Of a stretch of 22,264 nt of DNA, positions 655-20,034 are shown piece by piece (the first letter of the stretch is position 1; each line of letters begins with the position of its first letter). The translations under genes and the position numbers were made by a program. The notes beneath the pieces were generated by a model. That model was not told the DNA's origin, made no database searches, and was given only the letters and a program-made list of their open reading frames with translations. The DNA comes from a virus. The stretch lies in IMG/VR virus record IMGVR_UViG_3300017746_000187, positions 1 to 22,264 of that record. One strand, written 5' to 3'.

Positions 655-2367
655 CTATCCATCACAAGAGATGCAATCTGCTTGGCGACTTCCAAGATCT
701 CCTTTAATAACCGAATCAGTTCGCAAATAATAGAATGTTTTGACACCCAATTTCCAACCTTCCATATGCACTTGATTAATCCATTTTGGGGAATCATTAG
801 GATCAAATGAAAGATTTAATGATTGTGTTTGATCTATATATTTTTGCCTTTCAGCTGCTTGTTTTACTAATTCTAATTGATTTGTTTCAGAAAATGTTAA
901 AAATACTTCTTTTTCTTCAGATGATAATATATTATCTGGTAAACCTAATACTGATCCTCCTTCTTGTAACATTTGTTTCCACCATTTTTCTTTATTTTCA
1001 CCTTTAGATTCAAGTAAAGATTCAAGTGATTTGTTTTTTCTAATAAATGTTCCTTTAGCACCATTAAATGTATAAACATTAGCAGGTAAAGGTTCAATAC
1101 CAGCTGATATACCACCACAAATAACAGAATTTGATACTGTAGGGGCAACTGCTAGTAAATGAGTATTTCTCATACCCGTTCCTCTACACCATAAAGGTTC
1201 TCCATACTCAGCTGCTAAATCCATAGAAGCTGTTTCTGATTCCATTCTAATTTTATTAAAAATATTTCTAGTGTGTACTGTAGATGCTACTGAATTAAAG
1301 GGTAAATTTTTCTGTTGTAAAAAGGTATGCCAACCCATTACACCTAAACCTAATGCTCTACCTTTAGAAGCATGCTTATGTGTTCTTTTTAATGATTCTT
1401 TACCATTTGATTTATCAATAAATTCTTGCATTACTCCATCTAAAAACCAAATTGCAGTTTGAATACAGTCTGTATCCTTAAATTCTTCCCATTTAGCTAA
1501 ATTAAGAGATGATAAACAACATATAAAAGAATGTTCTTCATCTGTAAATAATGTAATTTCAGAACAAATATTAGTCATAGTAACATCTAAGTTATTCATT
1601 CTATAAGCAATAGGATTATTTTTATTAACATTATCCTTATACATTATATAAGGTTCTCCTGTTTCCATTCTTGATTTTAAAACTTTAGCCCAACGATTCA
1701 TAGAATCTGAGTCTCTGGCTTCTAATTTTCTCATAAATGAATCACCTACAACTACACATTGATGTAAGTTTAAACATTGTCTATTAGGATCTCCTTTAGG
1801 TCTTCTAATTTCTAAAAATTCATCTATATCTCCATGTTCAATATCTAAATTAACAGATGCTGCGCCCCTTCTAACATTTCCTTGATTAGTTGCAATAATT
1901 GATGAATCATAAATTTTACACCATGGAACTACACCTTCACTTTTACCATTTCCTGTAATATATTCTCCACGTTTTCTAATGCGGGATACACTAATACCTA
2001 CACCTCCGCCAGATGCTGTTAACTTCATTAGTTCTGCGTTAGTTAAACCAATTCCACGTATAGAATCGGGTGTATCTACACCAAAACAACTAATAGGTAA
2101 ACCTCTATCAGTACCCATATTAGATATAACGGGGGATGCTAATCCTATCCAACCATTCCAAATATATTTAAAAAATTTACTTGCTAGTTCTGGTTTTTTA
2201 AGTCTATGTGCTGCGGCATTTGCTACTCTTTTATATGCTGTTCTTACATTTTCACCAGGCAATAAATATCCTTTGCTAATGGTTGCTAATGAAATTTCAT
2301 CCATCCATTCTGGGTATTGTTTTCCAGCTTCCCAATTACTATAATCTACTATTAAATTATTATCCAT
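655..2367 (-). CDS. nrdA: Class I ribonucleotide reductase, large (alpha) subunit NrdA
   Basis: This enzyme reduces ribonucleoside diphosphates to deoxy forms with NrdB, feeding phage DNA synthesis in the cytoplasm. In a 570-residue protein starting at the ATG at 2365-2367, the key residues are visible: Cys94 and Cys283 (active-site redox pair), Asn266-x-Cys268-x-Glu270 (thiyl radical and catalytic acid), Tyr546-Tyr547 (radical transfer) and a C-terminal Cys565-x-x-Cys568 shuttle pair. The GGGVGISVS segment follows Cys94. The 15-residue spacing from Cys268 to Cys283 matches the eukaryotic-type spacing better than that of E. coli. At 570 residues it is far shorter than the usual 750-790. The N-terminal ATP-cone is missing, so dATP feedback at that site should be absent. 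I chose the ATG one base after the nrdB stop; a longer frame with GTG at 2401-2403 only adds 12 residues read out of frame from the nrdB 3' end. Confidence 0.96.
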   Translation of the reverse strand: MDNNLIVDYSNWEAGKQYPEWMDEISLATISKGYLLPGENVRTAYKRVANAAAHRLKKPELASKFFKYIWNGWIGLASPVISNMGTDRGLPISCFGVDTPDSIRGIGLTNAELMKLTASGGGVGISVSRIRKRGEYITGNGKSEGVVPWCKIYDSSIIATNQGNVRRGAASVNLDIEHGDIDEFLEIRRPKGDPNRQCLNLHQCVVVGDSFMRKLEARDSDSMNRWAKVLKSRMETGEPYIMYKDNVNKNNPIAYRMNNLDVTMTNICSEITLFTDEEHSFICCLSSLNLAKWEEFKDTDCIQTAIWFLDGVMQEFIDKSNGKESLKRTHKHASKGRALGLGVMGWHTFLQQKNLPFNSVASTVHTRNIFNKIRMESETASMDLAAEYGEPLWCRGTGMRNTHLLAVAPTVSNSVICGGISAGIEPLPANVYTFNGAKGTFIRKNKSLESLLESKGENKEKWWKQMLQEGGSVLGLPDNILSSEEKEVFLTFSETNQLELVKQAAERQKYIDQTQSLNLSFDPNDSPKWINQVHMEGWKLGVKTFYYLRTDSVIKGDLGSRQADCISCDG

Positions 2368-2368
2368 A

Positions 2369-3355
2369 TTAAAATATTGATGCGGCGTCCCAATTTTGAA
2401 CACCTTTACTATAATTAGTTACTCTATTTGCAAAGAAATCTGTATGTTGTTTTCCACCTGATAAATTATCAAACCAACTCATTCTTTGTACTGCTTCTTG
2501 ATCTATTCCATTAACAATTGCATCATATCCTAGATCGCTCATTTTTGTATTTACTCTGTGTTTAATAAATGATATTAAATCATATTTTGGACATCCCTTT
2601 AAATCTCCCATTTCGTAAACAGTATCAATAAAATCAAGTTCTAATTTTAAAGATAGCTTTGCTGCTTCTTCAATATCAGATCTTAATTCAGGAGTGTCAA
2701 ATTCAGGGTGTTCTTTTAGTAAAGTTCTAAATAACCAACATCCAGCATCTGAATGTAATGATTCATCTCTGATACTCCATTCTACTATTTGACCTACACC
2801 TTTTAGTTTATTATCTAATTTAAAGGATAATAAAACAGCAAAAGATGAAAATAAATTAACTCCTTCTGTAAATGCAGAAAAAATTGCTAATGATTTAGCT
2901 CTTTCATGCCAATTAGGAGTACCATCATGAGAATCTCTAACTTCAGTTAGTGCTTCTATTTTAGCCATAGTTGCCTCATCTTCTAAAAATTCAGCAAAAT
3001 CATCTAAACCTAATTCTTCATTTAATAAAGAATAAGCTTCAGCGTGTATAGTTTCAAAAGCACCAAATGTAACTGCCATTTTAATTACTTCTGGTTTTCT
3101 AAACCATTTTGTAACTAAAGATGACCAATAATCATTTACTACAGTTTCTGTTTGAGCAAAACCTTTTAAAATCGAACCAATAATATTTTTTTCTACATCT
3201 GTTAAATTTTGTTTCCAATCATTAACATCAGACATCATTGGAACTTCTGTATGTAACCAATGTGCTTGTTGTTGTTTCATCCAATAATCATGAGCAACTG
3301 GGTATTCAAATGGTTTATAAACAATACGTTCTTGTAATAAAGATTTTTTTGGCAT
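2369..3355 (-). CDS. nrdB: Class I ribonucleotide reductase, small (beta) subunit NrdB
   Basis: This 328-residue subunit holds the di-metal centre and tyrosyl radical that start catalysis in NrdA. Metal ligands can be assigned by spacing: Glu70, Glu101 and His104 (FETIHAEAY), Glu164 (FTEG), and Glu198 and His201 (RDESLH). Tyr108, four residues after His104, is in the radical-tyrosine position, so this is a tyrosyl-radical enzyme rather than the Phe-containing manganese/iron (class Ic) type. The first ligand is Glu where E. coli has Asp84, as in chlamydial R2. The ATG at 3353-3355 follows an A-rich leader without a Shine-Dalgarno sequence, 17 bases after the helicase stop. nrdA begins one base after this stop, so the two subunits are probably translationally coupled. 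The C-terminal NWDAASIF tail is the expected NrdA-docking end. Confidence 0.96.
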   Translation of the reverse strand: MPKKSLLQERIVYKPFEYPVAHDYWMKQQQAHWLHTEVPMMSDVNDWKQNLTDVEKNIIGSILKGFAQTETVVNDYWSSLVTKWFRKPEVIKMAVTFGAFETIHAEAYSLLNEELGLDDFAEFLEDEATMAKIEALTEVRDSHDGTPNWHERAKSLAIFSAFTEGVNLFSSFAVLLSFKLDNKLKGVGQIVEWSIRDESLHSDAGCWLFRTLLKEHPEFDTPELRSDIEEAAKLSLKLELDFIDTVYEMGDLKGCPKYDLISFIKHRVNTKMSDLGYDAIVNGIDQEAVQRMSWFDNLSGGKQHTDFFANRVTNYSKGVQNWDAASIF

Positions 3356-3372: not shown

Positions 3373-4755
3373 TTATTTTAAGTTTTCTCGAAAACCTTCT
3401 AATTTTTCACGAAGTAAAGCTTTATCAAATTTGTCTGTATCAGTATCAAATCTGTTGGTTTGGGTTTTAGGTGCTACATATTCATCTTCTTCTAAATCCG
3501 TATTATAATTATGTACTTCAAAATGACCTGTTGCTGTATCAGCTTTAACAGCAAATGTAAGACCATCCATACCATATCTATTTTTCATTATATGAAATCT
3601 ACCTGTACCCTTAACTTTATCTTCTTTTTTCCTTGATAAAGACATTGAAAAATCGGTAATCATAAGCTTGTCATAAGAACCTGCAGCTTTATCACCTTCA
3701 ATAATCTCATCTTTTGCACCAGCACGGTTAACTTGAGAAACTGACCAAATAGGTATATCTAATTCTCTAGCTAATCCTTTTGTGCTAGTATAAATATCGT
3801 CAATTTCGTCCTTACGCTCCCTATTTTTCTTTCTTGATGAAAGTAAATCAACATAATCAATAAGTATTAAATCTGCTTTGCATCCCATATTTGCAACTTT
3901 CGCAATATGAGATTCAATAGTTGATACTGTTGCCCTACCTGTTGGGAATTCTTTAATAATAAGTCTACCAGGTAGCTGAGGTACTATTTCTTCTGCCTTT
4001 GGTTTTAGTAACTCATGTTTATTAACTGGAATTTGGGTGAAAAAAGCATCATATCTTTTTCCTACATAATCTTCACCCAACTCCAATGTATAGTGAAGAA
4101 CGTTATATCCCAGTCTAACAGCATACCCTCCCAATGCTACAAGAGACCACGATTTACCACCTCCAGGATTACCAAAAATAAGACCAAAATCTCCATTTCC
4201 CAATCCGCCTTGTAATAGTGTGTTAATCCTTTCCCAAGGAGTAGGTATAGTCGTACGAGAGTTTTCTCGATAACGTTCTTCGATATCTTTATTATATTCA
4301 TGTCCTACGTTTTTATCTTGACCAGCTTTTAATGCTCCATCAACTAAAAACCTAATACCATCAAAATCACCTGCTTTTAACAAATCAACTGATGACATTA
4401 ATGCTTTTTTTAATTGTTGGTTTTTACAAAAATTAGTAAATTCTTCCTGAACATATTTTAAATCTTCATCAGATGATACATAAGCTAATTTTAGTTGTTC
4501 TTTAATAGATAATTGTAATACATCATTATCTATTTTTTGTAACTCAATTTTTAAGGTTTCAAGATTTGGAGTTGTATGATACTTATCATAATACTTTAAA
4601 ATCTCTTTAATTACCCACTTATGCGCACTATTTTCAAAAAATTCTTCACTAATAATATCATGTATATTTGTTAAAAACTCTTTATGAGTTAATAAGGATG
4701 ATATTGCTTTAATTTGAAATTCTGGTCCGTAATTATTTAATGTGTGTAATGTCAA
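3373..4755 (-). CDS. gp41: Replicative DNA helicase, DnaB/T4 gp41 family
   Basis: A 460-residue hexameric 5'-3' helicase that would unwind the fork and, by family analogy, recruit primase. The C-terminal RecA-like core shows Walker A GNPGGGKS at residues 195-202, Glu225 in HYTLELGEDY (position of the catalytic glutamate), Walker B DLILIDY at 295-301, and the DnaB sensor motif SVSQVNRAG at 338-346. The N-terminal 150 residues are helical and match the position of the DnaB-type N domain. Length is close to T4 gp41 (about 475 residues). It starts with ATG at 4753-4755, inside a four-base overlap with the upstream 5' nuclease stop (ATGA), so translation is likely coupled. The acidic, Asp/Thr-rich segment at about 420-445 is a probable flexible linker. 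No separate primase gene is visible in the window. Confidence 0.93.
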   Translation of the reverse strand: MTLHTLNNYGPEFQIKAISSLLTHKEFLTNIHDIISEEFFENSAHKWVIKEILKYYDKYHTTPNLETLKIELQKIDNDVLQLSIKEQLKLAYVSSDEDLKYVQEEFTNFCKNQQLKKALMSSVDLLKAGDFDGIRFLVDGALKAGQDKNVGHEYNKDIEERYRENSRTTIPTPWERINTLLQGGLGNGDFGLIFGNPGGGKSWSLVALGGYAVRLGYNVLHYTLELGEDYVGKRYDAFFTQIPVNKHELLKPKAEEIVPQLPGRLIIKEFPTGRATVSTIESHIAKVANMGCKADLILIDYVDLLSSRKKNRERKDEIDDIYTSTKGLARELDIPIWSVSQVNRAGAKDEIIEGDKAAGSYDKLMITDFSMSLSRKKEDKVKGTGRFHIMKNRYGMDGLTFAVKADTATGHFEVHNYNTDLEEDEYVAPKTQTNRFDTDTDKFDKALLREKLEGFRENLK

Positions 4756-5792
4756 TTTTTATAACCTTTAAAGTGTGAAAATTTATCGTTTAACCATATT
4801 TCTAAATTCCTAATCATTCCTCCTAATTTATCTTCATTATAAATTTGAACAAATAATTTAGGTTCTAGTTCTGGGAATTCCTGTTCAATAACATAATCAA
4901 CATATTCTATTTGTTCCGCATCAACCATAGGTTTACTTAAATCCATGATTTTAAAACTATTTTCTAATTTTACTCTATCCTGAATTATCCTCGAATATAC
5001 AATATGTTCTTTAAATTTCCTAGCAGATATATCAAAAATATCTTCTAATGTTAAAACCTCAGTTTGTAATTCAGGGAATCTTTTAAATATACCTTTTTCA
5101 CCTAATCCCTTAACTCCCGGGATTTTATCTGAATTATCTCCTAATAATGTTTTATATAAAATAAAATTTTGGGATAATACACCAAATTTTTGTAAAACCG
5201 TATCAGAATTATAATATTCTTTCTCCATTGGTCTATATAATATTATTTTATCAGTTACTAACTGTACAAAATCTTTATCACTAGAAACAATAAAAACGGT
5301 TGAATTAAATTTTTTAACTAATTTTTCGGATAATACGGCTATAATATCATCAGCTTCTACCTTATCAATTATAGTTGTTTTAATAGATAATAACTTTAAA
5401 TATTGAATTAAACGTACTATTTGATCAACTTTAGCATCATGTTCATCATCTAAATCTTCAAATACTTCCCAATTAGTAATTCGTTGTAAATTTCTTCCTG
5501 ATTTGTATTCGGGGAGCAGGTTTTTACGGTTTGTTGCCGATCCTGCTCCATCGAATACTACATAAACAGATGTAGGTTGAGTCTGATTTATTAAAGCACC
5601 TAAACTACGAAGGAATCCACCTAACCCACCAATGTGAACACCATCAGGATTTACCATATTTAACATTGCAAAATTCCTAAAAAATAGATTTAATCCATCT
5701 ATTACTAAGACTTTATCATGTTTTTTTAAAGTTGGCTCCTCCCTTTGCTCTTGGACTTCGTCCAATAGCTTAAATAGTTCTTTTTGCTTCAT
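4752..5792 (-). CDS. 5'-3' exonuclease, FEN/T4 RNase H type
   Basis: This 346-residue structure-specific 5' nuclease is expected to remove RNA primers and flaps during lagging-strand synthesis, as T4 RNase H does. The acidic metal-binding residues are all visible: Asp32 in VLVIDGLNLFFRN, Asp81 in VVFDG, Glu146/Asp148/Asp149 in VEADD, Asp172/Asp174 in SSDKDF, and Asp219/Asp222 in LGDNSDKIPG. The helix-hairpin-helix segment NSDKIPGVKGLGEKG at 220-234 binds DNA downstream of the flap. Length is slightly above T4 RNase H (about 305) because of an N-terminal charged extension of roughly 25 residues. It sits five bases after the uvsX stop and overlaps the helicase start by four bases. The family also includes the 5' nuclease domain of Pol I; here it is a separate protein, and the polymerase in this window lacks that domain. 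Confidence 0.94.
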   Translation of the reverse strand: MKQKELFKLLDEVQEQREEPTLKKHDKVLVIDGLNLFFRNFAMLNMVNPDGVHIGGLGGFLRSLGALINQTQPTSVYVVFDGAGSATNRKNLLPEYKSGRNLQRITNWEVFEDLDDEHDAKVDQIVRLIQYLKLLSIKTTIIDKVEADDIIAVLSEKLVKKFNSTVFIVSSDKDFVQLVTDKIILYRPMEKEYYNSDTVLQKFGVLSQNFILYKTLLGDNSDKIPGVKGLGEKGIFKRFPELQTEVLTLEDIFDISARKFKEHIVYSRIIQDRVKLENSFKIMDLSKPMVDAEQIEYVDYVIEQEFPELEPKLFVQIYNEDKLGGMIRNLEIWLNDKFSHFKGYKN

Positions 5793-5797: not shown

Positions 5798-6871
5798 TTA
5801 TACTGGTTCTTTCTCGAAGTGTGAGATGTCTTGAATTTCTTCCCCTTCTTCAACTACATCAAAATTCATTCCACCTAATACTTTTGCCCATTCCTTGGCA
5901 TTATCATCTTTGTATTTCTTAAGTTGATTTGGTTCATCTAATAAAAAACCATGAGGGGTCATTACAATTTTACCTCTTGTAGTAACACCATTAATATGGT
6001 TTTTATCAATTTGTAAGTTAGCACGTTTAGCAAATTCTACTTGCTTGCCATCTTTAATTGCTTTAATTTTAGATGTTCCAGCAGACATAATATTACCAAA
6101 TGTAACTACAAATGTTGAATCAAACCACATTGCATAACCACCCTTATTCATTAATTTAGGTTTACCCATAGGTGATTCTGGTTTTAATGTCCAAACTTTA
6201 TTAACACAAACTAAAGTATTAGTAAATGGTGATGACTCTTTTCTTGATAATGTAATTTTTTGATTAACATTATTCCCAAATTGAGTTGACATCGCGCCTG
6301 CATTCCATTCATTGTTGTTTTTATTTGATTTAAGTGACATTTCACAAGGTACAGAACCAATACTATCCCATAGGAATAATAAATCATAAGGTAAATTACC
6401 TCGTTTTTGTTCATCCATTAAATCTAAAATAAATCCAGCAACATCTTCAATAGAATTAAGTGTTTCTCTATCAACATAAATAAAATTACCATCATAATTA
6501 GTAATTTCTCCATTTTCGTCTTTTTCTATGTTAATATCTAATCCCATTTGAACTGCATGCTCCCAATTCCATTTCATTTCTGTGATAATAAAAACAGGCA
6601 GTATCCCATTATTTTGGGCGGATACTGCTGCTTCTATCATCGCTGTTGTTTTACCTGTGTCAGAATGACCTCTAAGTAAAACAATGTGCCCCATAGGTAT
6701 ACCTGGTATAGAGGTAACTTCTTGAAAGGCAGGAGAGAGGGGTATCCATTGTTGATCTTTGAATTTAATATTCTTGTCTAGTCCCTTTTTATTCTTAAAT
6801 TCATTTAAATTAAATTTACTTTGAATTTCTTTAGAGACTGCCGCCGATAGTGATTTTTTCTTTCTGGCCAT
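5798..6871 (-). CDS. uvsX: UvsX-like recombinase (RecA/Rad51 superfamily)
   Basis: A 357-residue strand-exchange ATPase for recombination-dependent replication and repair. Walker A is GHSDTGKTT at 68-76, preceded by PMGHIVLLR. A glutamate in ITEMKWNW (Glu98) is in the catalytic position, Walker B is DLLFLWDS at 163-170 followed by IGSVP, and the segment GAMSTQFGNNVNQ (192-204) is in the place of DNA-binding loop L1. The N-terminal 40 residues are Lys-rich, fitting a filament-interface region. The C-terminal tail is acidic (EEGEEIQDISHFEKEP), as in other RecA-type proteins where it modulates DNA binding. Length is near T4 UvsX (about 390). It starts two bases after the stop of the ssDNA-binding gene and runs into the 5' nuclease gene, matching the functional pairing of UvsX and gp32. 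No UvsY-like mediator gene was recognised. Confidence 0.93.
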   Translation of the reverse strand: MARKKKSLSAAVSKEIQSKFNLNEFKNKKGLDKNIKFKDQQWIPLSPAFQEVTSIPGIPMGHIVLLRGHSDTGKTTAMIEAAVSAQNNGILPVFIITEMKWNWEHAVQMGLDINIEKDENGEITNYDGNFIYVDRETLNSIEDVAGFILDLMDEQKRGNLPYDLLFLWDSIGSVPCEMSLKSNKNNNEWNAGAMSTQFGNNVNQKITLSRKESSPFTNTLVCVNKVWTLKPESPMGKPKLMNKGGYAMWFDSTFVVTFGNIMSAGTSKIKAIKDGKQVEFAKRANLQIDKNHINGVTTRGKIVMTPHGFLLDEPNQLKKYKDDNAKEWAKVLGGMNFDVVEEGEEIQDISHFEKEPV

Positions 6872-6873: not shown

Positions 6874-7716
6874 TTAAAAGGGTAGATCGTTTGGTTCATT
6901 ACTTTTTTTGTCGTCGAATAAAGAATCAAATTGATCAGTTTTAGTTTTCTTAGATTTAGAAGTATCTAATGAAAACTTAGATGGCGCTGGTTGTTTAGCA
7001 TCATCAAAATCATCATTTGGTTCTGATATAATAGTACCTTCATCCTCTATTTCAGGAGCTAACCATTTTTCTAATGCGGATTTCATTTCATCAAAAGTGA
7101 ATTTTTTAAATTCGCCATTAGGGTCTGGTTGTTCTGCTTTCCATTTTTCAACTTGGGCAGCATCACTACTAAGTGGAGTTTGTTTTAATCTAACTCTAAC
7201 TGATGATTTATTATATTGTGTTCCTGTAGCTTCAGGTCCTACTGTTTCAATAGTAAGGTCTCTACCGTTTACAATATCAGTATAATCACCAATTTCTTCG
7301 TCGACAGCAAGTGAAAGTAATTCTTCGTAAATTAATTTTCCGAATTGCCATAATCTAACACCTTTATCTTCTTCTCCTCTAACAATTACAGGAGCAAAAA
7401 TACGTGTTTTAGGGTCTAGTTTCTTAGCTAAAACATAATTTTCTTTATTATATTCTTCTCTAAGTTTACTAGCAAATGAAGCTATAGGGTCTTTATCACC
7501 GAAATTAAGTGGTGAAATCATAACTTTATTTGTAATACCATAATAGAACTTAAGTTCTGTAAATGGGTTGTTAGAATTGAAAGCACTAGGCACAATTCTG
7601 ATCTGTTGTTTACCTACAGTAGGTCTCCAAAATGTCAAACTATAATCTCGTTTTTGACCTTGTGGTTGTTTTTGTTGGAGGGTGTCCAACTTCTGTTTAA
7701 GCATTGATAAATCCAT
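6874..7716 (-). CDS. gp32: Single-stranded DNA-binding protein, gp32-like
   Basis: A 280-residue protein expected to coat ssDNA at the fork and coordinate polymerase, helicase and UvsX. The N-terminus (MDLSMLKQKLDTLQQKQ) is a short helical segment like the gp32 cooperativity region, followed by the beta-rich stretch YSLTFWRPTVGKQQIRIVP found in marine T4-like gp32 proteins. The core resembles an OB-fold. It contains no cysteine and no histidine, so the zinc site of T4 gp32 is absent. The C-terminal 60 residues are low-complexity and acidic, ending FDSLFDDKKSNEPNDLPF. The terminal Asp-Leu-Pro-Phe closely resembles the Asp-Ile-Pro-Phe tip of bacterial SSB rather than the gp32 tail. It is the first gene after a 60-base leader holding a hairpin, and leads uvsX by two bases. 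The family call rests on context plus these features. Confidence 0.82.
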   Translation of the reverse strand: MDLSMLKQKLDTLQQKQPQGQKRDYSLTFWRPTVGKQQIRIVPSAFNSNNPFTELKFYYGITNKVMISPLNFGDKDPIASFASKLREEYNKENYVLAKKLDPKTRIFAPVIVRGEEDKGVRLWQFGKLIYEELLSLAVDEEIGDYTDIVNGRDLTIETVGPEATGTQYNKSSVRVRLKQTPLSSDAAQVEKWKAEQPDPNGEFKKFTFDEMKSALEKWLAPEIEDEGTIISEPNDDFDDAKQPAPSKFSLDTSKSKKTKTDQFDSLFDDKKSNEPNDLPF

Positions 7717-7740
7717 AATTTTATAACTTTTTTTTAATGT

Positions 7741-7778
7741 AACTATAATATACGAACCAGAATTTGGGTATCCAAATT
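7741..7778 (-). promoter_or_regulatory. Hairpin leader before the ssDNA-binding gene (possible autoregulatory operator)
   Basis: On the minus strand a 7-base-pair stem (AATTTGG and CCAAATT, loop ATAC) spans 7778-7761, about 45-62 bases before the ATG. It overlaps the stop codon of the preceding gene. The loop ATAC is complementary to GTAT at 7753-7750, so a small pseudoknot is possible. The remaining leader to the ATG is almost pure A/T and unstructured. T4 gene 32 has a pseudoknot at a similar distance followed by an AU-rich leader, to which gp32 binds to repress its own translation. No T-run follows the stem, so it is not a simple terminator. A promoter could also lie here (TATATTATA). Confidence 0.4.
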
Positions 7779-8244
7779 ATAGTTCAATTATTTTGTGAAT
7801 TTTTGTATTTAATTGATTTAACTCATTATGTTGAGTTAATAAAATACAATTTTTATAATGTTGCCAATTTACTTGATAAGAAGAATCTACAACACCACCA
7901 TTTAATTTTTTAATTAATTCATTTAAAGCATTAATGGTGTAAAGAGTATTCGACTCTTTTTTTCTGTGGACTAAAATTGTATTATCTGGGATAGTGTGAA
8001 CGTTACCTTGGTCTACATTATATGTAATGACATACTCATCCTTACCAGCTATTTCAAGAACAAATAGTTTGTTATATATGATAACATATTTACTTTTGAT
8101 TTCCTCTAATAGGCCATCTAAGTTATCTAGGTCAGTAAATGTACAGAATAGTTTATTATTCAAATCTCCAACGGTTTTGATGTCAGTTACAACATCATAA
8201 TTCGCGTTATACGTATTTGTTTCTTTATCTAAAGTCGTAATCAT
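7777..8244 (-). CDS. Hypothetical protein, 155 residues, between DNA polymerase and ssDNA-binding genes
   Basis: I do not recognise a family. The frame starts with ATG at 8242-8244, inside the last 20 bases of the polymerase gene, and ends at TAA 7777-7779, so it is co-transcribed with replication genes and may be translationally coupled to the polymerase. The protein is acidic to neutral with alternating beta-strand-like segments (KYVIIYNKLFVLEIAG, DEYVITYNV) in the first half and a Leu/Asn-rich helical segment (LYTINALNELIKKLNGG) in the second. There is no signal peptide, membrane segment or cysteine cluster. Its position suggests a role with the polymerase or in replication control, but nothing in the sequence shows this. 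Confidence 0.75.
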   Translation of the reverse strand: MITTLDKETNTYNANYDVVTDIKTVGDLNNKLFCTFTDLDNLDGLLEEIKSKYVIIYNKLFVLEIAGKDEYVITYNVDQGNVHTIPDNTILVHRKKESNTLYTINALNELIKKLNGGVVDSSYQVNWQHYKNCILLTQHNELNQLNTKIHKIIEL

Positions 8245-9493
8245 AGCCCTGTTTTATTTTTGTGTTAAATTTGTATTTAGTAAATATACTATTAATTGAT
8301 TCCATAACCTCGGTTTCATCTTCACTATAATCGAATAAGAATGAATCATATGTATATAATATTAATTTTGTTTTTTTACCTCTTAATTCCTTTAATATAT
8401 CCCACAGTATACGAACATTCATTGACGTCTCCAAGTTTTGTAGCAAATAATTAAATAATTTTTGCGGATTCATTTCCTTATAATAATCTTTTTGATAAAC
8501 GTAATTTGAAATCGGACACACAATATCCTCTCCTTGATAAAAATCGAGCCACATATTATGTATATACTCTTTTATTTTTTGAAAGTATTCCAGATGTTCA
8601 TATTTTTTAAATACTCCTCCATACAATTGTTTAAATGTTAACTCTTTTGATTCTTTATAACTTACTCCGTAAAGTTGTTGTAAATGACTATGAATATCAC
8701 TAGTGGGGAAATTATAATCGATGAGACGACAAGACAAACTAGGATGGTAAGCACTAATATCAATTTCATAAAGAATATCATTAGACGGTATAAAAGATTT
8801 TCTACATCCATTTTCTTTGTTAAGTGCTGCATAATTTACTCCTTTAAATTTATTTGATGGTCTTGTAGTTAGTGTTTTTAAGTTGTACTGACTGTAGACT
8901 CGTTTACTATCAACGGGATGGAAGTGTTCTTCGAATTTAGGTACGTGTATTTGTAATCCATTTCGCTCGATAGCGTTGAATACCACGGATACTTTATTGT
9001 TAAAGAATTCATCATATTTAGTTGGTTTATTGTTAATATTCGTTTTTAAATTTTCAAAAATGGTTTCACACAATTCATAGTGTTTTACTATAGGGACTAC
9101 CTCATTTATATTTGGTTTATCCTTGTTTTTATAATATAGTATTTCATGTGCTTTAGTTAATTCCGGTATATACGTATTAGGTGGTGTGTTTATGTCATAA
9201 AGAGCTTTGTTTGGAAAATAATGTAATGTTTCTTTTTTATCTCTACAATATAAAACCTCGAATTTATCTACGATTTCGTCTATACGCGTTTTTAACACAC
9301 CTAAACTTTCACTATGTGTAATACATAACATATAGCCTTTATGTGCTTTTAACGGTCTAATATACACTAAACTTACGCTATTTAGCGTAGGGTGCACATT
9401 ATGACTACTCGGTATTACTTCAATGAATGCTTTTTTATAACCACTATTTAATAAAACCTCGAGTTGACTATCCTCCTCTATTAACCAATACAT
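8225..9493 (-). CDS. Reduced family A (Pol I-type) DNA polymerase
   Basis: A 422-residue polymerase. Family A landmarks appear in order: VVFNAIERNGLQI (170-182, start of the polymerase region), TTRPSN (209-214, the T-x-R motif), RKSFIP, motif A EIDISAYHPSL with Asp245, DIHSHLQQLYG (266-276, cf. DIHxxTA in Pol I), motif B with Lys283, Phe287, Tyr291 and Gly292 at the exact 4/4/4 spacing of the O-helix, and motif C YTYDSFLFD with Asp383. Unusual: motif C reads Tyr-Asp-Ser instead of His-Asp-Glu, the position of the steric-gate Glu in motif A is His250, and the Arg754 position appears to be Tyr279. Only about 30 residues separate IERNG from T-x-R, against about 110 in E. coli, so the thumb is nearly gone. 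Residues 1-165 match a 3'-5' exonuclease layout, but the catalytic acids seem lost. The 35-base AT-rich gap upstream (9494-9528) separates it from the structural genes. No family B gp43 is present in the window. Confidence 0.88.
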   Translation of the reverse strand: MYWLIEEDSQLEVLLNSGYKKAFIEVIPSSHNVHPTLNSVSLVYIRPLKAHKGYMLCITHSESLGVLKTRIDEIVDKFEVLYCRDKKETLHYFPNKALYDINTPPNTYIPELTKAHEILYYKNKDKPNINEVVPIVKHYELCETIFENLKTNINNKPTKYDEFFNNKVSVVFNAIERNGLQIHVPKFEEHFHPVDSKRVYSQYNLKTLTTRPSNKFKGVNYAALNKENGCRKSFIPSNDILYEIDISAYHPSLSCRLIDYNFPTSDIHSHLQQLYGVSYKESKELTFKQLYGGVFKKYEHLEYFQKIKEYIHNMWLDFYQGEDIVCPISNYVYQKDYYKEMNPQKLFNYLLQNLETSMNVRILWDILKELRGKKTKLILYTYDSFLFDYSEDETEVMESINSIFTKYKFNTKIKQGYDYDFR

Positions 9494-9528
9494 AAAACCT
9501 TTTTATTTGCCGTAATATAATAAAAAAA

Positions 9529-10365
9529 CTAGTAACCTCCACTTGATCCTCCACTTGTTGTTGTAGGATTTGTATTTTCTTTTACTACTTGATTTATTCT
9601 TTCCATTGAGCCACTTATAGGTACTAGTAAATCATGTGGTGTTAAAACATGTTTTGCCCCAACCATGGGTCCTTTATCAGGGTGAACATGATATAGTCCA
9701 ACATATTCTTTACCTGTTTTTCTTACTATAAATTCTCCTCCTTTTGTCTCTAAATTATTTGCTGCTGTAAATTTAAAATATTGTGAAAATTGTTTTTTAA
9801 AGTAATTAGTAAAACCATATATGTTGTTTCTAGTTTCTACTAGTTCAACTATATTTTTATTTACATTATAAACTTCTTTTTCTTTTCCTGTTAAAATCCA
9901 ATTAATAGAAATTGGAAAGTAAAAATCCCACTGTACCGAATTATTTTTAGAATTAAATATTTCATATTCTTCTTTATTTACCTCCATATAAATAAATTCA
10001 TTACTTTTTAATAAAAAATACCTTTGGAACTCTCCTAATTTATAGTCTGATTTTGTTGGGAAGGGAAGAGATGATAGAGGAGGTCTAGGTGATTTAGCAT
10101 TTATATTTCTACCTTTTGAATGATAATAAGCATCATTAATAATATAATAAGATTCAGGTAATGGTTCACTATCTTCTGATTTTTCAGGTGGTGCATTTTC
10201 TACTAATAGTTTATTAGGTTTATCTTGAGGGTTTTTACCTGTGTAAAATTCTCTATCAGAGGTTTCAAAATAAGGACCGATATATTCTTTACCAGTAGAT
10301 GGGTCAAATAACTCACCTGAGTTAGCGTAAAGATTTTCTATTATTTGTGATTTTGGATAGTACAT
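9529..10365 (-). CDS. Putative baseplate/virion protein with duplicated TGKEY module
   Basis: This 278-residue protein has no enzyme motif I recognise. It carries the same module twice: GELFDPSTGKEYIGPY at residues 17-32 and GEFIVRKTGKEYVGLY at 210-225, aligning without gaps and continuing to shared Asp and Gly positions (to 43 and 236). The second copy runs into HVHPDKGPMVGAKHVLTPHDLL; I recall similar Tyr-His-x-His/Met-x-Gly modules in structural proteins of marine phages. The region between is charged and Tyr/Phe-rich, with a Pro-rich stretch near 93-104. The tail TTTSGGSSGGY is low-complexity and probably flexible. The ATG directly follows the stop of the 1160-residue hub gene (TAA-ATG), so it belongs to the baseplate operon and is its last gene. 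A structural role is inferred from context. Confidence 0.75.
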   Translation of the reverse strand: MYYPKSQIIENLYANSGELFDPSTGKEYIGPYFETSDREFYTGKNPQDKPNKLLVENAPPEKSEDSEPLPESYYIINDAYYHSKGRNINAKSPRPPLSSLPFPTKSDYKLGEFQRYFLLKSNEFIYMEVNKEEYEIFNSKNNSVQWDFYFPISINWILTGKEKEVYNVNKNIVELVETRNNIYGFTNYFKKQFSQYFKFTAANNLETKGGEFIVRKTGKEYVGLYHVHPDKGPMVGAKHVLTPHDLLVPISGSMERINQVVKENTNPTTTSGGSSGGY

Positions 10366-13300
10366 TTATGATAATTTAGTATTTTGTGTATCCCAATCTT
10401 TTTGTGGTTTACCTGGGTTATCATTTTCTGCATTTTCTAATGCTACATCTCTATTAAATTGTACAAAGAAATGAACAGCATCTACATAACCTCCAAAATC
10501 ACCACCCCACATTAATCCAGCTTTTTGTGCTTCAGATACTATACCTTGTGAAATCCACGGGTTTCTTTCTTTCTTTTTCATCCATCTACCTTTTGGATCT
10601 ACAACACTAATGTCAGCCCCCGCAGCATAATTATGAACTGATTTTCCTGGTGCTGCGTTTTTAGGATTTTCTGCTCTTAGTTCTACTGATCGAGAAAATG
10701 GTCTAAATACAGCATTTATATAAATTTTATAATCATTATATCCTCCATTTAACATATTAGTATACCAAGTTCTAAAAGTATTTTGTACGTTTACATTCAT
10801 ATAACTTACAGCAGTTTCTAAAGAAATCTTTTTCCCATAAGTACTACTATTAACAGGAATACCATTTATATCTCTATTATCAAAAAATTCTAAGGGATCA
10901 TCAGTTAAAAGACCAGAAGTATCTGATAGACCACCGGGATCAATTGGTCCTGTATTTGCTGCAACATCTGCTTCACCATCATTAATACTTACAGCTGACA
11001 TATTTGTAAATGGAGTTTTAGGTTTATTTTCAACATCAGGAACAGCTAAAGTACCAATTGAAGTTGACCAATTATTATCACTAATACTATGGTCTACTTT
11101 ATCAATAATAAATTTTAATGCTTCATTATATGCTGGAGGTAGGAATTGTTGTCTTAATGACATACCATTGTAAATTTTAATACCAGACATACCTTCAAAG
11201 GTTATACCTAATTTTATAGGAATAAAACCTGATTTTGGGGAAGGTCTATTAGTTTCAGCAAATATTCTTTCATTTAATAAATTAGCAAACCCATTAAAAC
11301 ATTGATGTCCTTCACTAATAAAATCATCAGACATATTAGTGTATAAAGCATTACGAGTTTTAACTGTAATAGTTTTAAAATCTGATTTTTCAGCATCCAT
11401 TGGAATTTTAGCTTCACCACCAAAGGCTCTTACTAAATAAAGATCATAATTTGAAGCATATTGTTCAGATTCATCATACATATACCTTTGTATAGCTGAT
11501 ATGAATTTTCCTGTAGGTGTTTTTGATACGAAATCTGTTATAAAATCTTTAACTATTAATGCAGCATTTAATCCTTTAGATAAAGTTAAAAATGTATAAT
11601 AAGTAACATTAGCAAATCTTACACCTTTATAAGTTACATTTTTTCTAACATTAATTGCTTTACTAAATTCATCTTGACTATTTCCTAAATTTTGCCCAGA
11701 TTGTAATTCTGCTTCAGGTAGAGAAGTACTTTTTTTACTAAAAACTAAATTTAGTACTTCTCCTCTAACTTTTTCATTAGCTAAACCTCCAAATAAAAAG
11801 TTTGATACTTTTGCACCTGTGGTTTCTTCTCCTTCATCCCAAGCTTTATCTTGTTCTCCTGTTCCTTCATTAGTGTAATCAAAACCAGGGGAATCAATAA
11901 TTGATGGGTTTGTTCTGTCCATTAAACCTATATTCCATTTTGAAAAAGCAGTTGCATCTGTATTTTTAGTTGAACTTCCTTGTGCTGTTGCTCCAATAGA
12001 AATTTGGCTAGAAAGTTCAGGTGTTATATTAGTTTCAAAACTAAAATCAGTAACAAAATTAGAAGAACCAGAAGGACTATAACCAAATATTTCAAATGAA
12101 TCTCTTTTTATTAAACCTAAATTAGCAATTGGATTATTATCAATTATAGTAACAGTAATATCATCTTTCATTATTACTTCTAATTCCATTATATTACCTA
12201 ATGCTTTATTTATACCTCCTACTATTCTTGTTAAAAATTCAAAAAGGTTTAATTCTCCTTTTTTATCTGTTTGTTGTAAAATTTCAGCTATAAATTCAAA
12301 GTTAACATAAATATTCATTACCCTACCATAATAACAATCGCCTTTATTATAGGTAAATTCTTTTAAATCATTTAAATACCCCGGATATTTTAATTCTTCT
12401 AATTGGCTATCTGCTGTTTGGAAAAATTGGGGTTTGATTAAACATACTTTAGGGTCTAATGAAATTAAATTTGGATATGAATTACAAATATTAGATTCTT
12501 CTTGATAATCAAAATCTAATTGTACTTCTGGGTTTGATTTCATTATTAAAGGAGCAATTTTTGTTTGAACTGCTTCCATTAATTTTCCTAAAGTCATATA
12601 ATAATTAAAATTAGGTAAATCAATTGAAGGATAATTATCTGAATTTCTAGCCCATGATAAACCATCATAGTGTTCTCTAGAATGTTCCCATGAAAAATAA
12701 GGACCTTTTACACTTGCATTTACACCTTCACTGCTTCTATCTGCCCATTTAATATCTCTTACTTTTTGATACATAAAATAAGAAATTTGGGAATCTCCAG
12801 CTGTACCTACAATAGCAGAATCTTCAATTTCACCAAGCCCTTTTGCACCTATACCAAAAAATCCTGATTGGCTATCTATATCATCTAATTTTTGTTGGGC
12901 TGATAAAGCTAATACCTTATTTCTTGCACTAATAGATTCAATAACATCTCCTAAAGTTATTAAATCAATAGAAATATCATAAGTTCCATCAGGATTAAAA
13001 CTCCAATCAAAATTTGTTACTTTTCCAAAAAAACCATCATAATTATAGGAACACTTTCTTCTTTTGTCATTAATCTTTTGTAGCATTGATTTTTGGGTTT
13101 CTTTTGCTGTCTTAAAAAATGCATCTTCTATTACTGTAGTACCTACTTTTTGTATATTACCTTCTCCATCTAAGTATTTATCAAACCCCCATTCTAACAT
13201 CATTGTATAACCTAATCTTAGATATAATAACTCTATTAATTCAAATTGAAATTTATTATAAGCTTTTAAAGAAACTTTAGCTTTACGAATAGAACCCCTA

Positions 13301-13848
13301 TTTATACATTCAACACTAGCCTCAATTAATCCAGGTGCTGGTGAAAGACCAAAATCTGAACCACCTAAACCATAAGAATTGTTTGAATTCCAAAGACTAT
13401 TATTTTTAGTAACACCAGATCTTTGATTATATTTTAAAAATTTACCTCCTTCATCAAATACTGCTTCTGATAAAGTATTAAATAAAATACATTTTTCTGC
13501 TAATTGGTTACCTACAAAATTTTCAGTATCTTGAAGACCTATATTTTTTAATCTTTGTATTCCATCTGGTATTCCATCTTTATCAGCATCAATTGCTCCT
13601 GCTTCAAAAACTTTAGTTCCCTCAGCGGCATTAGTTCCAGCGGCTTGTGCTTGAAAATCTGCTTTAGTATTTTCACCAAGTATATAAACAGAAGATGCTA
13701 GTTTTAACCAAGCATTTCTATTATTTAAAAATTGAATTTGTTGTGGGGTCCTTTTATTAAGGTATCCACTTCCATGTGTTTTTTGTCTATTTTGGATTTC
13801 TAAATAAACACCCTCTTCAAATTGTTCCCCAATTATATTTCCAGTCAT
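10366..13848 (-). CDS. Baseplate hub protein with C-terminal M15-type peptidase domain
   Basis: A 1160-residue virion protein. Residues 276-305 (GKVTNFDWSFNPDGTYDIS, then a GDVIES end) resemble hub or tail proteins of T4-like marine phages. Residues 87-96 (DADKDGIPDG) form a DxDxDGxxD loop typical of calcium binding. The middle is long and beta-rich without a motif I recognise. Residues about 1010-1135 form a zinc peptidase domain: SVHNYAAGADIS with His1072 and Asp1079, and DAVHFF with Asp1123 and His1126, the H-x6-D plus D-x-x-H layout of M15 (VanY/endolysin) enzymes that cut peptidoglycan stem peptides. This would open the cell wall during injection, the job done by the lysozyme domain of T4 gp5. 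The C-terminal 25 residues are hydrophilic. The gene lies five bases after the LysM gene and directly abuts the next gene. Confidence 0.85.
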   Translation of the reverse strand: MTGNIIGEQFEEGVYLEIQNRQKTHGSGYLNKRTPQQIQFLNNRNAWLKLASSVYILGENTKADFQAQAAGTNAAEGTKVFEAGAIDADKDGIPDGIQRLKNIGLQDTENFVGNQLAEKCILFNTLSEAVFDEGGKFLKYNQRSGVTKNNSLWNSNNSYGLGGSDFGLSPAPGLIEASVECINRGSIRKAKVSLKAYNKFQFELIELLYLRLGYTMMLEWGFDKYLDGEGNIQKVGTTVIEDAFFKTAKETQKSMLQKINDKRRKCSYNYDGFFGKVTNFDWSFNPDGTYDISIDLITLGDVIESISARNKVLALSAQQKLDDIDSQSGFFGIGAKGLGEIEDSAIVGTAGDSQISYFMYQKVRDIKWADRSSEGVNASVKGPYFSWEHSREHYDGLSWARNSDNYPSIDLPNFNYYMTLGKLMEAVQTKIAPLIMKSNPEVQLDFDYQEESNICNSYPNLISLDPKVCLIKPQFFQTADSQLEELKYPGYLNDLKEFTYNKGDCYYGRVMNIYVNFEFIAEILQQTDKKGELNLFEFLTRIVGGINKALGNIMELEVIMKDDITVTIIDNNPIANLGLIKRDSFEIFGYSPSGSSNFVTDFSFETNITPELSSQISIGATAQGSSTKNTDATAFSKWNIGLMDRTNPSIIDSPGFDYTNEGTGEQDKAWDEGEETTGAKVSNFLFGGLANEKVRGEVLNLVFSKKSTSLPEAELQSGQNLGNSQDEFSKAINVRKNVTYKGVRFANVTYYTFLTLSKGLNAALIVKDFITDFVSKTPTGKFISAIQRYMYDESEQYASNYDLYLVRAFGGEAKIPMDAEKSDFKTITVKTRNALYTNMSDDFISEGHQCFNGFANLLNERIFAETNRPSPKSGFIPIKLGITFEGMSGIKIYNGMSLRQQFLPPAYNEALKFIIDKVDHSISDNNWSTSIGTLAVPDVENKPKTPFTNMSAVSINDGEADVAANTGPIDPGGLSDTSGLLTDDPLEFFDNRDINGIPVNSSTYGKKISLETAVSYMNVNVQNTFRTWYTNMLNGGYNDYKIYINAVFRPFSRSVELRAENPKNAAPGKSVHNYAAGADISVVDPKGRWMKKKERNPWISQGIVSEAQKAGLMWGGDFGGYVDAVHFFVQFNRDVALENAENDNPGKPQKDWDTQNTKLS

Positions 13849-13853
13849 AACTT

Positions 13854-14174
13854 TTATATTTCATTTAATTCATTATAACTAGATATGATAGATCCTACTT
13901 GAGATGGTATTCTTAATTGAATACCCGGGGTAATAAAATAAGAACCTTGGTTTAATGAATTATTAGCAATTGATATAATCCACCATAAAGATGAATCACC
14001 ATAATATTGTTGAGCTAGTTGATCAAATCTATCTCCTATTTCAGCATAAACATAAGTATCTTCATAATTTAAAGGAACATTAGGATATTTAGTTGTACCA
14101 TAATATCTTTTGCCTTTTAAAGTTTTATATTCATTACTTTTTTTAAATACGGGAATATTAGTATATCTAGCCAT
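13854..14174 (-). CDS. LysM-domain baseplate protein (gp53-like)
   Basis: A 106-residue protein. From about residue 41 to 95 it has a LysM-like fold signature: YVYAEIGDRFDQLAQQYYGD, then SLWWIISIANNSLN, and PGIQLRIPS at the end. This matches the small LysM proteins of contractile tails (T4 gp53, tail protein X relatives), which join the hub to the wedges. Such structural LysM domains usually hold the baseplate together rather than bind peptidoglycan. The N-terminal 40 residues are basic and Tyr-rich. Its ATG overlaps the preceding stop by one base (TAATG), so translation is coupled to the 685-residue gene. T4 gp53 is longer (about 196 residues), so this may be only the domain-carrying half of that function. 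Confidence 0.75.
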   Translation of the reverse strand: MARYTNIPVFKKSNEYKTLKGKRYYGTTKYPNVPLNYEDTYVYAEIGDRFDQLAQQYYGDSSLWWIISIANNSLNQGSYFITPGIQLRIPSQVGSIISSYNELNEI

Positions 14175-16231
14175 TATGTAGTATCTTGTGGTTTTTGAGG
14201 AACATAATTGTTTTTATCGTAATTATTATTACGTCCATTATTTAATGATATATATCTTTCTTTTCCATAATTTGAAATAAAGTTTCCATCAGCACCTAAA
14301 TAATCTGTTTGTTTAAAAGAATTTTGTTGTATTCTAGGTACAAAATCATGTATTGGTACAAAGTTAAACCCAGACACTTTTATAATCATAGGTAATTCTT
14401 TAACTGTTGGGTCTGAACCTCCCTCATCATTGATACTAATATCCCAAGGTGAATCATCAGGCACATCTAAAGACATACCAGTTATTAATCCAGGTTGTTC
14501 ATAAAACCAACCACCCATTGTTAATGTAATAAGATTTCCTTGCATATACCCGGCATCTGAATAATCTGGTGCTAAAGATGAAGCTAAATAGTTTAACTTT
14601 TGATACATTGGAATTAATTCATTCTTAGATTGTGCAGCTACTGTCCATGCTAAAGAAACTGTTCTATCAAACCCTTGGTATTTATAGTAATTTTCAGCTC
14701 TGCCCATAAATTTCTGAGTCATCCAATCAGCAGAATAACTATCACTCATACTGTCAATAAAAGCTCTAAAATGAATGTAAGTTTTATTATTTGGGTCATC
14801 ATTATTTATTATACCAATTCTAAACTTAACTAAATCATTTTTAATACCAAAGCCATCATTACTATTACTTGAAATTACATTAGCTGAATTATATAAAGGT
14901 AAAGCATTTAATTTATCTAAGGGTTCAGATTTATTATTACCTGGTATTATTTTTCCTGCTGTATAACTTTTAATATTTCCTCTAGCAGATGGATTTCCTA
15001 AGTTTACTCTTTGTTCTATATTTTTTGTTACATAATCAGGTGAAGCTGGTATGATTGGGGAATCATTAATTAAAGTTTTCCTAAAATCAGGTTTAATTCC
15101 TGTTGCTGTTCTTTCCTGATTTTGTATGTCATAATAGTTTTCTATTTGTTGTTGATTAAATGCAGCAAAACCAAGAGAAACTCCACTAGTACTACCTGAT
15201 AGTATTAGATTATTGGGAGAAAAATAAACTGGTGCAGCTGAACCACTTTGATTTGTAACATTATTATTATAAACAGATCTAACTCCAAATAAAGAATCTA
15301 AAGGATTAAATGAACCAGAAAGATTAATTACATTTTTGTCAATAAATTGAGTTAAACTAGTTAAACTTGGATTACTACCGATATTTAAGGCTGATTGGGC
15401 TGCTTTTGCTAAAGGTGGTAAAGGAAACAAATCTGTAAATGAGCCAGTTAATTGAATGGTGTTTGGCAAAAAAGTTATAGTTCCAGTATTACCTTCTTGA
15501 TTAATACCAGTTCTTTGGTCATTAAGCATATTAATTGTAGTTGTACCAACTCCTAAAGTTGATCCAGGACCACCTGTATACTTATAAAGAATATTATCTC
15601 CTTGTTTCGAATTAATCTTAGGTAAAAATCCTAATAATCTACTTCTTTTACCATCAGGCCCTCCGTCTGTAATCTCAATATAAGTTGGTAATGTTAATCC
15701 CTTAGGTTGAGTTTGAACATCACCAGGCTCTCCACCTAACATTGGATTAAATGGGTTTAATCCTTGTTTATTTGGATGAACGCCAACACCTGTTCCTACT
15801 ACAGAAGCTATTGTTGATAAAGGAGTATAAATTCCTTGATTTAATGCTAAATTATCAGCAATAAACTGTCCGATAGCAGATAAAGGATCACCAGATGGTG
15901 TATTATCAGGTTCATTTTTATATTTTATGTAACCTGTATTTGTATTTACATTTGAAAGGGAAAGTGCATTTTGTTTTGCAATAAATAAAGGACCATTAGG
16001 ACTACGAAAATCGAATAACATTTGTGTCATTCGAGATACGTCGTTAACAATAGCTTTAGGAAATAGTGTACCTCCTCTTAATAAAAAATCTGGTCCTCCA
16101 GTTCGTCCTACATCTTGAAAACTAGAGGGAATATCTTTTACTATATAGGGTTGGTTACTATTACCACCACCAACTAAATCTTTACCAAACTTAATTGATT
16201 TTAAGTCCGTCCTAAGATCAACTAATCCCAT
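14174..16231 (-). CDS. Putative tail-tube initiator or baseplate hub protein
   Basis: A 685-residue protein in the baseplate operon. The C-terminal part (about 465-640) is the informative one: VKFRIGIINNDDP, KTYIHFRAFIDSMSDSYSAD, then GNLITLTMGGWFYEQPGLI, VPDDSPWDIS and LPMIIKVSGFNFVPIHD. This order of a membrane-tube-like beta sandwich with a DDSPWDI turn and an 'IxVSxxFxPIH' strand is seen in tube-initiator/hub proteins of contractile tails (T4 gp48/gp54 type), so I propose that role. The N-terminal 450 residues are Gly/Asn/Ser-rich, low in charge, with repeated F-x-P-N...L-S/T-G-S segments near 254-265, 300-308 and 337-348. No catalytic motif was found. It starts three bases after the stop of the 69-residue gene. 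The exact T4 counterpart is uncertain. Confidence 0.6.
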   Translation of the reverse strand: MGLVDLRTDLKSIKFGKDLVGGGNSNQPYIVKDIPSSFQDVGRTGGPDFLLRGGTLFPKAIVNDVSRMTQMLFDFRSPNGPLFIAKQNALSLSNVNTNTGYIKYKNEPDNTPSGDPLSAIGQFIADNLALNQGIYTPLSTIASVVGTGVGVHPNKQGLNPFNPMLGGEPGDVQTQPKGLTLPTYIEITDGGPDGKRSRLLGFLPKINSKQGDNILYKYTGGPGSTLGVGTTTINMLNDQRTGINQEGNTGTITFLPNTIQLTGSFTDLFPLPPLAKAAQSALNIGSNPSLTSLTQFIDKNVINLSGSFNPLDSLFGVRSVYNNNVTNQSGSAAPVYFSPNNLILSGSTSGVSLGFAAFNQQQIENYYDIQNQERTATGIKPDFRKTLINDSPIIPASPDYVTKNIEQRVNLGNPSARGNIKSYTAGKIIPGNNKSEPLDKLNALPLYNSANVISSNSNDGFGIKNDLVKFRIGIINNDDPNNKTYIHFRAFIDSMSDSYSADWMTQKFMGRAENYYKYQGFDRTVSLAWTVAAQSKNELIPMYQKLNYLASSLAPDYSDAGYMQGNLITLTMGGWFYEQPGLITGMSLDVPDDSPWDISINDEGGSDPTVKELPMIIKVSGFNFVPIHDFVPRIQQNSFKQTDYLGADGNFISNYGKERYISLNNGRNNNYDKNNYVPQKPQDTT

Positions 16232-16234
16232 TTA

Positions 16235-16444
16235 TTACTCAGGTAAGTTATTCACGTACTTACTACTTTCTTTAATAGAAGCAGCTAACTGAGTAGGACT
16301 TGGTAAATTATTCATAAATGGTTTTCCATCTAATGAATATTCATTATGTAAAGTAGATAATGCTTGATCCACTATTGGTGGAGAATTACCATCTAAACCT
16401 GTTAGTGAAGATTCACCCGCTTTTAATTTATTTAATAGACTCAT
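16235..16444 (-). CDS. Small hypothetical protein, 69 residues, first gene of baseplate operon
   Basis: ATG at 16442-16444 and a stop three bases before the next gene mark it as a real small gene in the operon. The protein is hydrophilic, with no membrane segment and no cysteine. It contains two similar Leu-Asp-Gly segments (TGLDGNSPP and YSLDGKPFM) and ends in a Ser/Lys-rich helix. I do not recognise a family. Position right after the tape measure gene suggests a tail or baseplate accessory protein, which is inference only. A candidate promoter box lies 15 bases upstream of its ATG, so it would open a transcript covering the genes down to 9529. Confidence 0.65.
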   Translation of the reverse strand: MSLLNKLKAGESSLTGLDGNSPPIVDQALSTLHNEYSLDGKPFMNNLPSPTQLAASIKESSKYVNNLPE

Positions 16445-16459
16445 AATTAATTATTTTTA

Positions 16460-16469
16460 TTATAAATAT
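16460..16469 (-). promoter_or_regulatory. Candidate late promoter box (ATATTTATAA)
   Basis: The minus strand reads ATATTTATAA, ending 15 bases before the ATG of the 69-residue gene, in the 29-base gap after the tape measure stop. The same ten bases precede the tape measure and tail tube genes. The gap is nearly pure A/T, so the match alone is weak; the recurrence is the evidence. Confidence 0.42.
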
Positions 16470-16473
16470 TGTG

Positions 16474-18876: not shown

Positions 18877-18888
18877 TAAGGTATTTTA

Positions 18889-18898
18889 TTATAAATAT
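18889..18898 (-). promoter_or_regulatory. Candidate late promoter box (ATATTTATAA)
   Basis: ATATTTATAA on the minus strand, ending 12 bases before the tape measure ATG (18874-18876), in a 24-base gap. It is identical to the boxes before the tail tube and 69-residue genes. It could equally be part of an AT-rich translation leader. Confidence 0.42.
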
Positions 18899-18900
18899 GA

Positions 18901-19275
18901 CTATTTAAAACTACTTTTACCTTTGAATTTTTTAAGGTTTTGTTCTGCGGTTTTGTATTGGTGGGAAGTTTTAGCAAATTCTGGGGCATTTACTTTACCA
19001 TCTGAGGAAACTAATGTTTGTTTACCTTTACCCTCGGATGCTTCTTTTTGTTTTTTATTTTCTTCTTTATAGTAATTATCAATTTCAGAAAATGTAAATT
19101 TTCTTAACCAAATCGGCATATTATAAATGGTTTCAAAGTCATAACCACCTTTACCGTGAAATAAAATATTATGGATTTGAGTAAATAAACTCTTCCTGAC
19201 TAGGGGTGCTGCCTTAGGCGTCAGGCCAAAAAAAGTTAAGCCCAATGGGCACTGCGACCTCCTCCCCGCTATCAA
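18901..19275 (-). CDS. gp51: gp51-like hub assembly protein, probably made as a frameshift extension of the gp26-like protein
   Basis: The open frame spans 124 codons after a TAG stop. The first possible start is TTG at 19273-19275, and the first 16 residues are only an alternate reading of the gp26-like 3' end. The recognisable part starts after the seven-T run: SLFTQIHNILFHGKGGYDF, then ETIYNMPIWLRKFTFSEI, similar to what I recall of gp51/hub-assembly proteins of T4-like marine phages. The first in-frame ATG is the Met of YNMPIW, inside this conserved part, so normal initiation would truncate it. Every other complete gene here has an ATG start. The tail is Lys-rich. Most likely it is expressed by +1 (or -2) slippage on TTT TTT T at 19234-19228, giving a gp26-gp51 fusion of about 346-347 residues. 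An independent TTG start is the alternative. Confidence 0.72.
   Translation of the reverse strand: MIAGRRSQCPLGLTFFGLTPKAAPLVRKSLFTQIHNILFHGKGGYDFETIYNMPIWLRKFTFSEIDNYYKEENKKQKEASEGKGKQTLVSSDGKVNAPEFAKTSHQYKTAEQNLKKFKGKSSFK
19211..19267 (-). promoter_or_regulatory. Probable programmed ribosomal frameshift site
   Basis: In the gp26-like frame the codons are AAC TTT TTT TGG CCT GAC GCC TAA, with seven T at 19234-19228 and the stop at 19216-19214. Slipping +1 (or -2) on the T run joins the gp51-like frame. Just upstream are a perfect hairpin GCCC-ATT-GGGC (19250-19240) and a Shine-Dalgarno-like GGGGAGGAGGT (19267-19257), 22 bases before the run. Downstream GGCCTGACGCC and GCCTAAGGC can form small stems. 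G+C is 41 of 70 bases at 19201-19270, against 16 of 70 at 19391-19460 in the same gene. Confidence 0.6.
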
Positions 19276-20008: not shown

Positions 20009-20034
20009 ATTTTTAATATTTCTTTAAACTTGTA

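Follow-up and report, generated by a model that had tools for sequence, protein, structure and literature searches.

Divergent DNA polymerases related to family A were described in large phages by Yutin et al. (2024, Virol J; PMC11348598). The passages of that paper on divPolA1 give it a truncated thumb, an inactivated exonuclease and a conserved palm, and report it from 14 phages of 155-190 kb, Flavobacterium phage immuto included, where it is encoded beside a regular DNA polymerase of family A, B or C. Immuto gp001 is the protein so named in immuto. The same passages connect the gene context of divPolA1 with genome replication in general terms, and describe the context of the regular polymerases as less obvious. 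In the literature, the name divPolA1 was found only in this paper and its preprint.

The window analyzed here is positions 1 to 22,264 of the IMG/VR virus record IMGVR_UViG_3300017746_000187, a 22 kb fragment. It encodes a new member of this already published family:

8225..9493, minus strand: divPolA1-type family A DNA polymerase, 422 aa plus stop (homology, conservation and profile matches; family named in PMC11348598)

The window polymerase was found to be homologous over its full length to immuto gp001 (35.4% identity over 96%, E 7e-70), which is the closest annotated relative, followed by the uncultured phage LR756508 and Microcystis phage Mel-JY01. As a single sequence it had no match in Pfam, PHROG or PDB sequence searches. 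A family alignment was built from 94 non-redundant relatives with 23-84% identity to the window protein, 27 of which matched PF00476 (best 5.7e-12), and immuto gp001 scored above the curated cut-off of that profile (43.9 vs. 34.3 bits). Searching PDB with the family profile gave weak matches to Taq (E 0.4 to 0.9) with the motifs in the correct register. When the family was compared by hhalign to a profile of Pol I, T7 and phage PolA, residues 194-406 were aligned through motifs A, B, and C with an E of 1.3e-5 and a probability of 80%, and the family A match is therefore beyond chance. Motifs A, B, and C were found in this order in the 422-residue reading frame and across the 94 relatives, in agreement with a sequence-only reading of the window. 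A right-hand palm is seen in the published models of relatives (PMC11348598, in the passages on this family), and from these and the sequence the window protein would be expected to have the same fold.

Searches of IMG/VR returned hundreds of stretches carrying divPolA1 (137, at least 592, 312, and 109 per search; the sets may overlap). This confirms the published family, known from 14 genomes, and shows it in hundreds of virus contigs of marine and freshwater origin. The lineage is distinct, as had been suggested from the sequence, but it is not new, since it corresponds to divPolA1 as described in those passages of PMC11348598. Contigs with divPolA1 were also present in several bacterial bins, among them Flavobacteriales and Winogradskyella, so flavobacterial hosts fit. 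One relative with 40% identity is carried by contig JAIOYD010000025 of a Rickettsiaceae bin (locus L177), which may be a misbinned phage contig. No plasmid-borne relatives were found, and viral contigs searched with the uncultured LR756508 homologue gave no relatives. Positions 7288-22263 of the window are 99.8% identical to IMGVR_UViG_3300017757_000044 (36,780 bp), which prolongs the window on one side.

The regions of the polymerase that could be aligned to known family A enzymes were the following:

8852..8869, minus strand: T-T-R-P-S-N motif, residues 209-214, its Arg corresponding to Pol I R668 (T209, R211, P212, and N214 in 94/94)
8744..8761, minus strand: motif A D-I-S-A-Y-H, with D245 as catalytic residue and H250 at the steric gate (both in 94/94; aligned to DYSQIE)
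8618..8659, minus strand: O helix/motif B, residues 279-292, with Y279 at the R754 position, K283, F287, Y291, and G292 (conservation and alignment)
8438..8452, minus strand: N348-Q352, corresponding to Pol I N845/Q849 (94/94; alignment)
8342..8350, minus strand: motif C Y-D-S, with D383 as catalytic residue (D383 in 94/94; Ser 55, Ala 39)
8870..8956, minus strand: short linker at the place of the Pol I thumb, residues 180-208 (33 vs. 125 residues from ERNG to T-x-R)
8984..9493, minus strand: vestigial 3'-5' exonuclease-like region without the DEDD acids, residues 1-170 (weak Pol I exonuclease profile match, column counts, and published models of relatives in the passages on divPolA1)

T209, R211, D245, H250, K283, Y291, G292, N348, Q352, and D383 were invariant in all 94 relatives, and F287 was kept in 93. 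The steric-gate Glu of family A is absent from motif A and is replaced by His in every relative. The O-helix Arg (R754 in E. coli) is likewise absent, with Tyr in 90 of 94 family members at the position of Y279. Motif C reads Y-D-S in 55 relatives and Y-D-A in 39. A His at the steric gate and a Tyr-Asp-Ser motif C had both been noticed in the window protein, and conservation across 94 relatives makes the His and the YDS/YDA motif traits of the family and not accidents of the window genome. The loss of R754, here a Tyr, together with that of the steric-gate Glu could mean a changed or lost chemistry.

The fingers are reduced. The distance from the motif A Asp to the O-helix Lys is 38 residues vs. 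53 in E. coli Pol I, exactly as had been stated before, and that from the O-helix Lys to the motif C Asp is 100 vs. 124 in the same alignment. The thumb is missing: the 33 residues measured between ERNG and T-x-R, vs. 125 in E. coli Pol I, are close to the sequence-only estimate of about 30 vs. 110. In the N-terminal half, the proposed register of FIEVIP against FAFDTE was recovered by profile alignment, although weakly (score 23.0; the highest among 30 column shuffles was 18.3). An intact DEDD site was looked for in the sequence of this half, and the aligned DEDD positions were found to hold no conserved set of acids among the 94 relatives; position 25 is E or D in 74 and position 27 is Ile in 84. 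The loss of the exonuclease acids that had been read from the window alone is thus a family-wide trait, and the 3'-5' exonuclease site of the window polymerase appears inactivated, as judged from what is a weak alignment.

The polymerase gene is followed on the same strand by a small gene, termed the partner below, and by genes for replication and recombination:

7777..8244, minus strand: partner gene, 155 aa, no known family (20-nt overlap with the polymerase gene end; co-occurrence)
6874..7716, minus strand: gp32-like single-strand DNA-binding protein (PF08804, 2.9e-11)
5798..6871, minus strand: UvsX-like recombinase (phrog_97, 1.1e-15)
4752..5792, minus strand: 5'-3' exonuclease of the Pol I N-domain/T4 RNase H type (PF02739, 2.3e-35)
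3373..4755, minus strand: DnaB/gp41-type helicase (phrog_19, 2e-78)
2369..3355, minus strand: ribonucleotide reductase small subunit (phrog_86, 1.1e-77)
655..2403, minus strand: ribonucleotide reductase large subunit (syntenic with immuto gp010 NrdA; gene order)

The order divPolA1, partner, gp32-like protein, UvsX, 5'-3' exonuclease and DnaB/gp41 helicase was found in all 65 loci that extend 6 kb or more downstream, and ribonucleotide reductase genes usually come next after the helicase. Upstream of the polymerase, among tail genes, positions 10366-13848 of the window encode a protein of 1160 aa with a C-terminal M15 peptidase-like domain (PF13539, 2.2e-6).

Co-occurrence of divPolA1 and the partner was strict. 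Of the 265 divPolA1 loci whose downstream sequence exceeds 700 bp, 264 have a partner homologue there; the one that does not (L089) is a truncated excerpt of LR756508, in which the partner follows 1.5 kb further on. Conversely, all 80 partner loci taken from IMG/VR had the divPolA1 gene upstream, and a search of 50,697 phage records placed the partner in exactly the same six as divPolA1. The partner is also better conserved than the polymerase, with 60% vs. 35% identity to immuto and 42% vs. about 28% to Mel-JY01, and its conserved core lies around V-H-R-K-K-E-x-N-T-x-Y-T-I-N-A-L-N. It had no convincing match in Pfam, PHROGs or PDB, and the part of the text of PMC11348598 that deals with divPolA1 contains no mention of it. 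By eye it resembles RegA, but homology was rejected by hhalign (probability 0.1%, a level that shuffled columns reach as well). The partner may be an obligate subunit of divPolA1. A reliance on gp32-like or other partners, as suggested from the sequence, is plausible, with the gene at 7777-8244 and not gp32 alone as the best candidate.

A separate full-length polymerase of family A or B was found in all 11 divPolA1 records of 150 kb or more, two of which (G001 and G002) look like near-duplicates. In the immuto clade this is a PolA of about 780 aa with the DTE motif and the steric-gate Glu, represented in immuto by gp199 (777 aa), where the DTE exonuclease motif is intact and both a thumb and the Glu of the steric gate are present. 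The others, including the relatives nearer the window, have a family B polymerase. No regular polymerase was seen in five contigs of 37-120 kb, all of them fragments, nor within the 22 kb window, itself a fragment. A gp61/DnaG-type primase was present in 6/6 large relatives tested. In three relatives the family B polymerase was found split between motifs B and C into one ORF of about 560 aa and one of about 310 aa (L517 811-3422 in G001, L518 1171-3770 in G010, and L516 1016-4287 in G005); in G005 the two halves are separated by about 640 bp with small ORFs. In LR756508.1, a 484 kb uncultured phage record, divPolA1 occurs together with a family B polymerase in fragments and with a match of the DNA polymerase III alpha type (47415-48068 and 260623-266900).

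Since all 11 relatives of at least 150 kb also encode a full-length polymerase, divPolA1 is unlikely to be the replicative polymerase. The suggestion that the window protein is a phage replicative polymerase therefore finds no support, as far as its relatives tell. An accessory polymerase, distinct from the main replicase of the phage, is the most likely identity of divPolA1. We propose, with a probability of just under 60%, that divPolA1 is a catalytically competent, proofreading-deficient and thumb-deleted family A polymerase, which large T4-like phages, probably of flavobacterial hosts, carry in addition to their main replicase and most likely use for short-patch synthesis. It would be of low processivity and synthesize short patches of DNA in Okazaki- or recombination-linked synthesis, together with the 5'-3' exonuclease, UvsX, gp32 and helicase of its operon. 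Gaps left after primer removal by the 5'-3' exonuclease would be filled by divPolA1, so that the two proteins would amount to a Pol I with its two activities in two genes, and recombination intermediates formed by UvsX and gp32 would be extended by it. In place of the missing thumb, the partner protein would take care of gripping the DNA or of recruitment. That the operon is constant while the family of the main polymerase differs between clades argues that divPolA1 serves a recombination/lagging-strand module and not one particular replicase.

Gene position can also be read the other way. It is divPolA1, and not the regular polymerase, that sits in the replication operon with the SSB, the recombinase, the 5'-3' exonuclease and the helicase, and the context of the regular polymerases was described as less obvious in the passages cited above (PMC11348598). 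divPolA1 could then be the main replicative polymerase, with processivity lent by gp32, the helicase and the partner, while repair would fall to the full-length A or B polymerase. We consider this unlikely, as it would leave the replication of a phage of about 160 kb to an enzyme without proofreading or a thumb, while a regular polymerase is present in all 11 large relatives, and that of immuto has an intact exonuclease, thumb and steric gate. A role in translesion synthesis or damage tolerance during recombination-dependent repair, as in other open-handed exonuclease-free polymerases, would agree with the lost exonuclease, the reduced thumb and fingers, and the nearby uvsX. No sequence feature separates such a role from plain gap filling, and we regard it as an improbable assignment.

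The active site bears on two further explanations. T7-type RNA polymerases have no steric-gate Glu and use HDS in motif C. As the steric-gate Glu is an invariant His in divPolA1 (H250 in 94/94) and its Y-D-S/A motif C resembles HDS, the enzyme could make or extend primers with a relaxed choice of sugar, using the family A fold in the manner of a PrimPol or Pol alpha. The His gate makes such a role possible, but a bulky His may still exclude the 2'-OH, and the separate gp61-type primase in all six large relatives tested weakens it, also in the form of divPolA1 as the only primase; we find it quite unlikely. The replaced equivalents of R754 and the steric-gate Glu and the lost thumb could even indicate a structural or regulatory subunit that is no longer an enzyme. 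Both catalytic Asp residues and other active-site residues are, however, invariant in 94/94 relatives, which a scaffold would not need, and this explanation is highly improbable.

The pairing with the partner could matter, as a polymerase lacking thumb and exonuclease was in every case accompanied by one small, very conserved protein of no known fold, and divPolA1 keeps its place in the recombination operon while the main replicase changes family between phages. A bolder version, put forward here tentatively and with the odds against it, would make divPolA1 one half of a new type of obligate two-subunit polymerase. The small protein encoded downstream (129-162 residues) would be the other half and take over the DNA-gripping role of the deleted thumb, and sugar selection would be altered by the His at the steric gate. 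The pairing makes it testable whether a polymerase can outsource its thumb.

Compared to immuto gp001, the window polymerase has the same truncated thumb, inactivated exonuclease, conserved palm and operon, and in both clades divPolA1 is extra to a regular DNA polymerase (for the window, a 22 kb fragment, this holds for its clade). It differs in motif A (DISAYH vs. DFDGYH), in a finger region that is 7 residues shorter, and in a regular polymerase of family B in its clade vs. family A in immuto. divPolA2 from barbaviruses and Vibrio phages (AUR84708; described in the corresponding passages of PMC11348598) is likewise a supplementary family A-like protein; it is about 430 aa long and lacks both an exonuclease and a canonical thumb. 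Unlike divPolA1, divPolA2 keeps a Glu at the steric gate of its apparent motif A and is described in those passages as having a variable gene context. Kinship of the two was rejected, as no significant sequence match was obtained (hmmsearch -0.1 bits, hhalign probability 0.2%). With E. coli Pol I (Klenow) and T7 gp5, divPolA1 shares palm and fingers, motifs A, B, and C, and the equivalents of R668, K758, F762, Y766, N845, and Q849. It differs from these enzymes by the absence of about 90 thumb residues, the apparent loss of the DEDD site, the changes E710 to His, R754 to Tyr and HDE to YDS/YDA, and a 5' nuclease encoded as a separate gene of the operon. As with T4 gp43 and regA, a small gene adjoins the polymerase gene in a T4-like replication cluster, but the partner at 7777-8244 has no profile similarity to RegA by hhalign.
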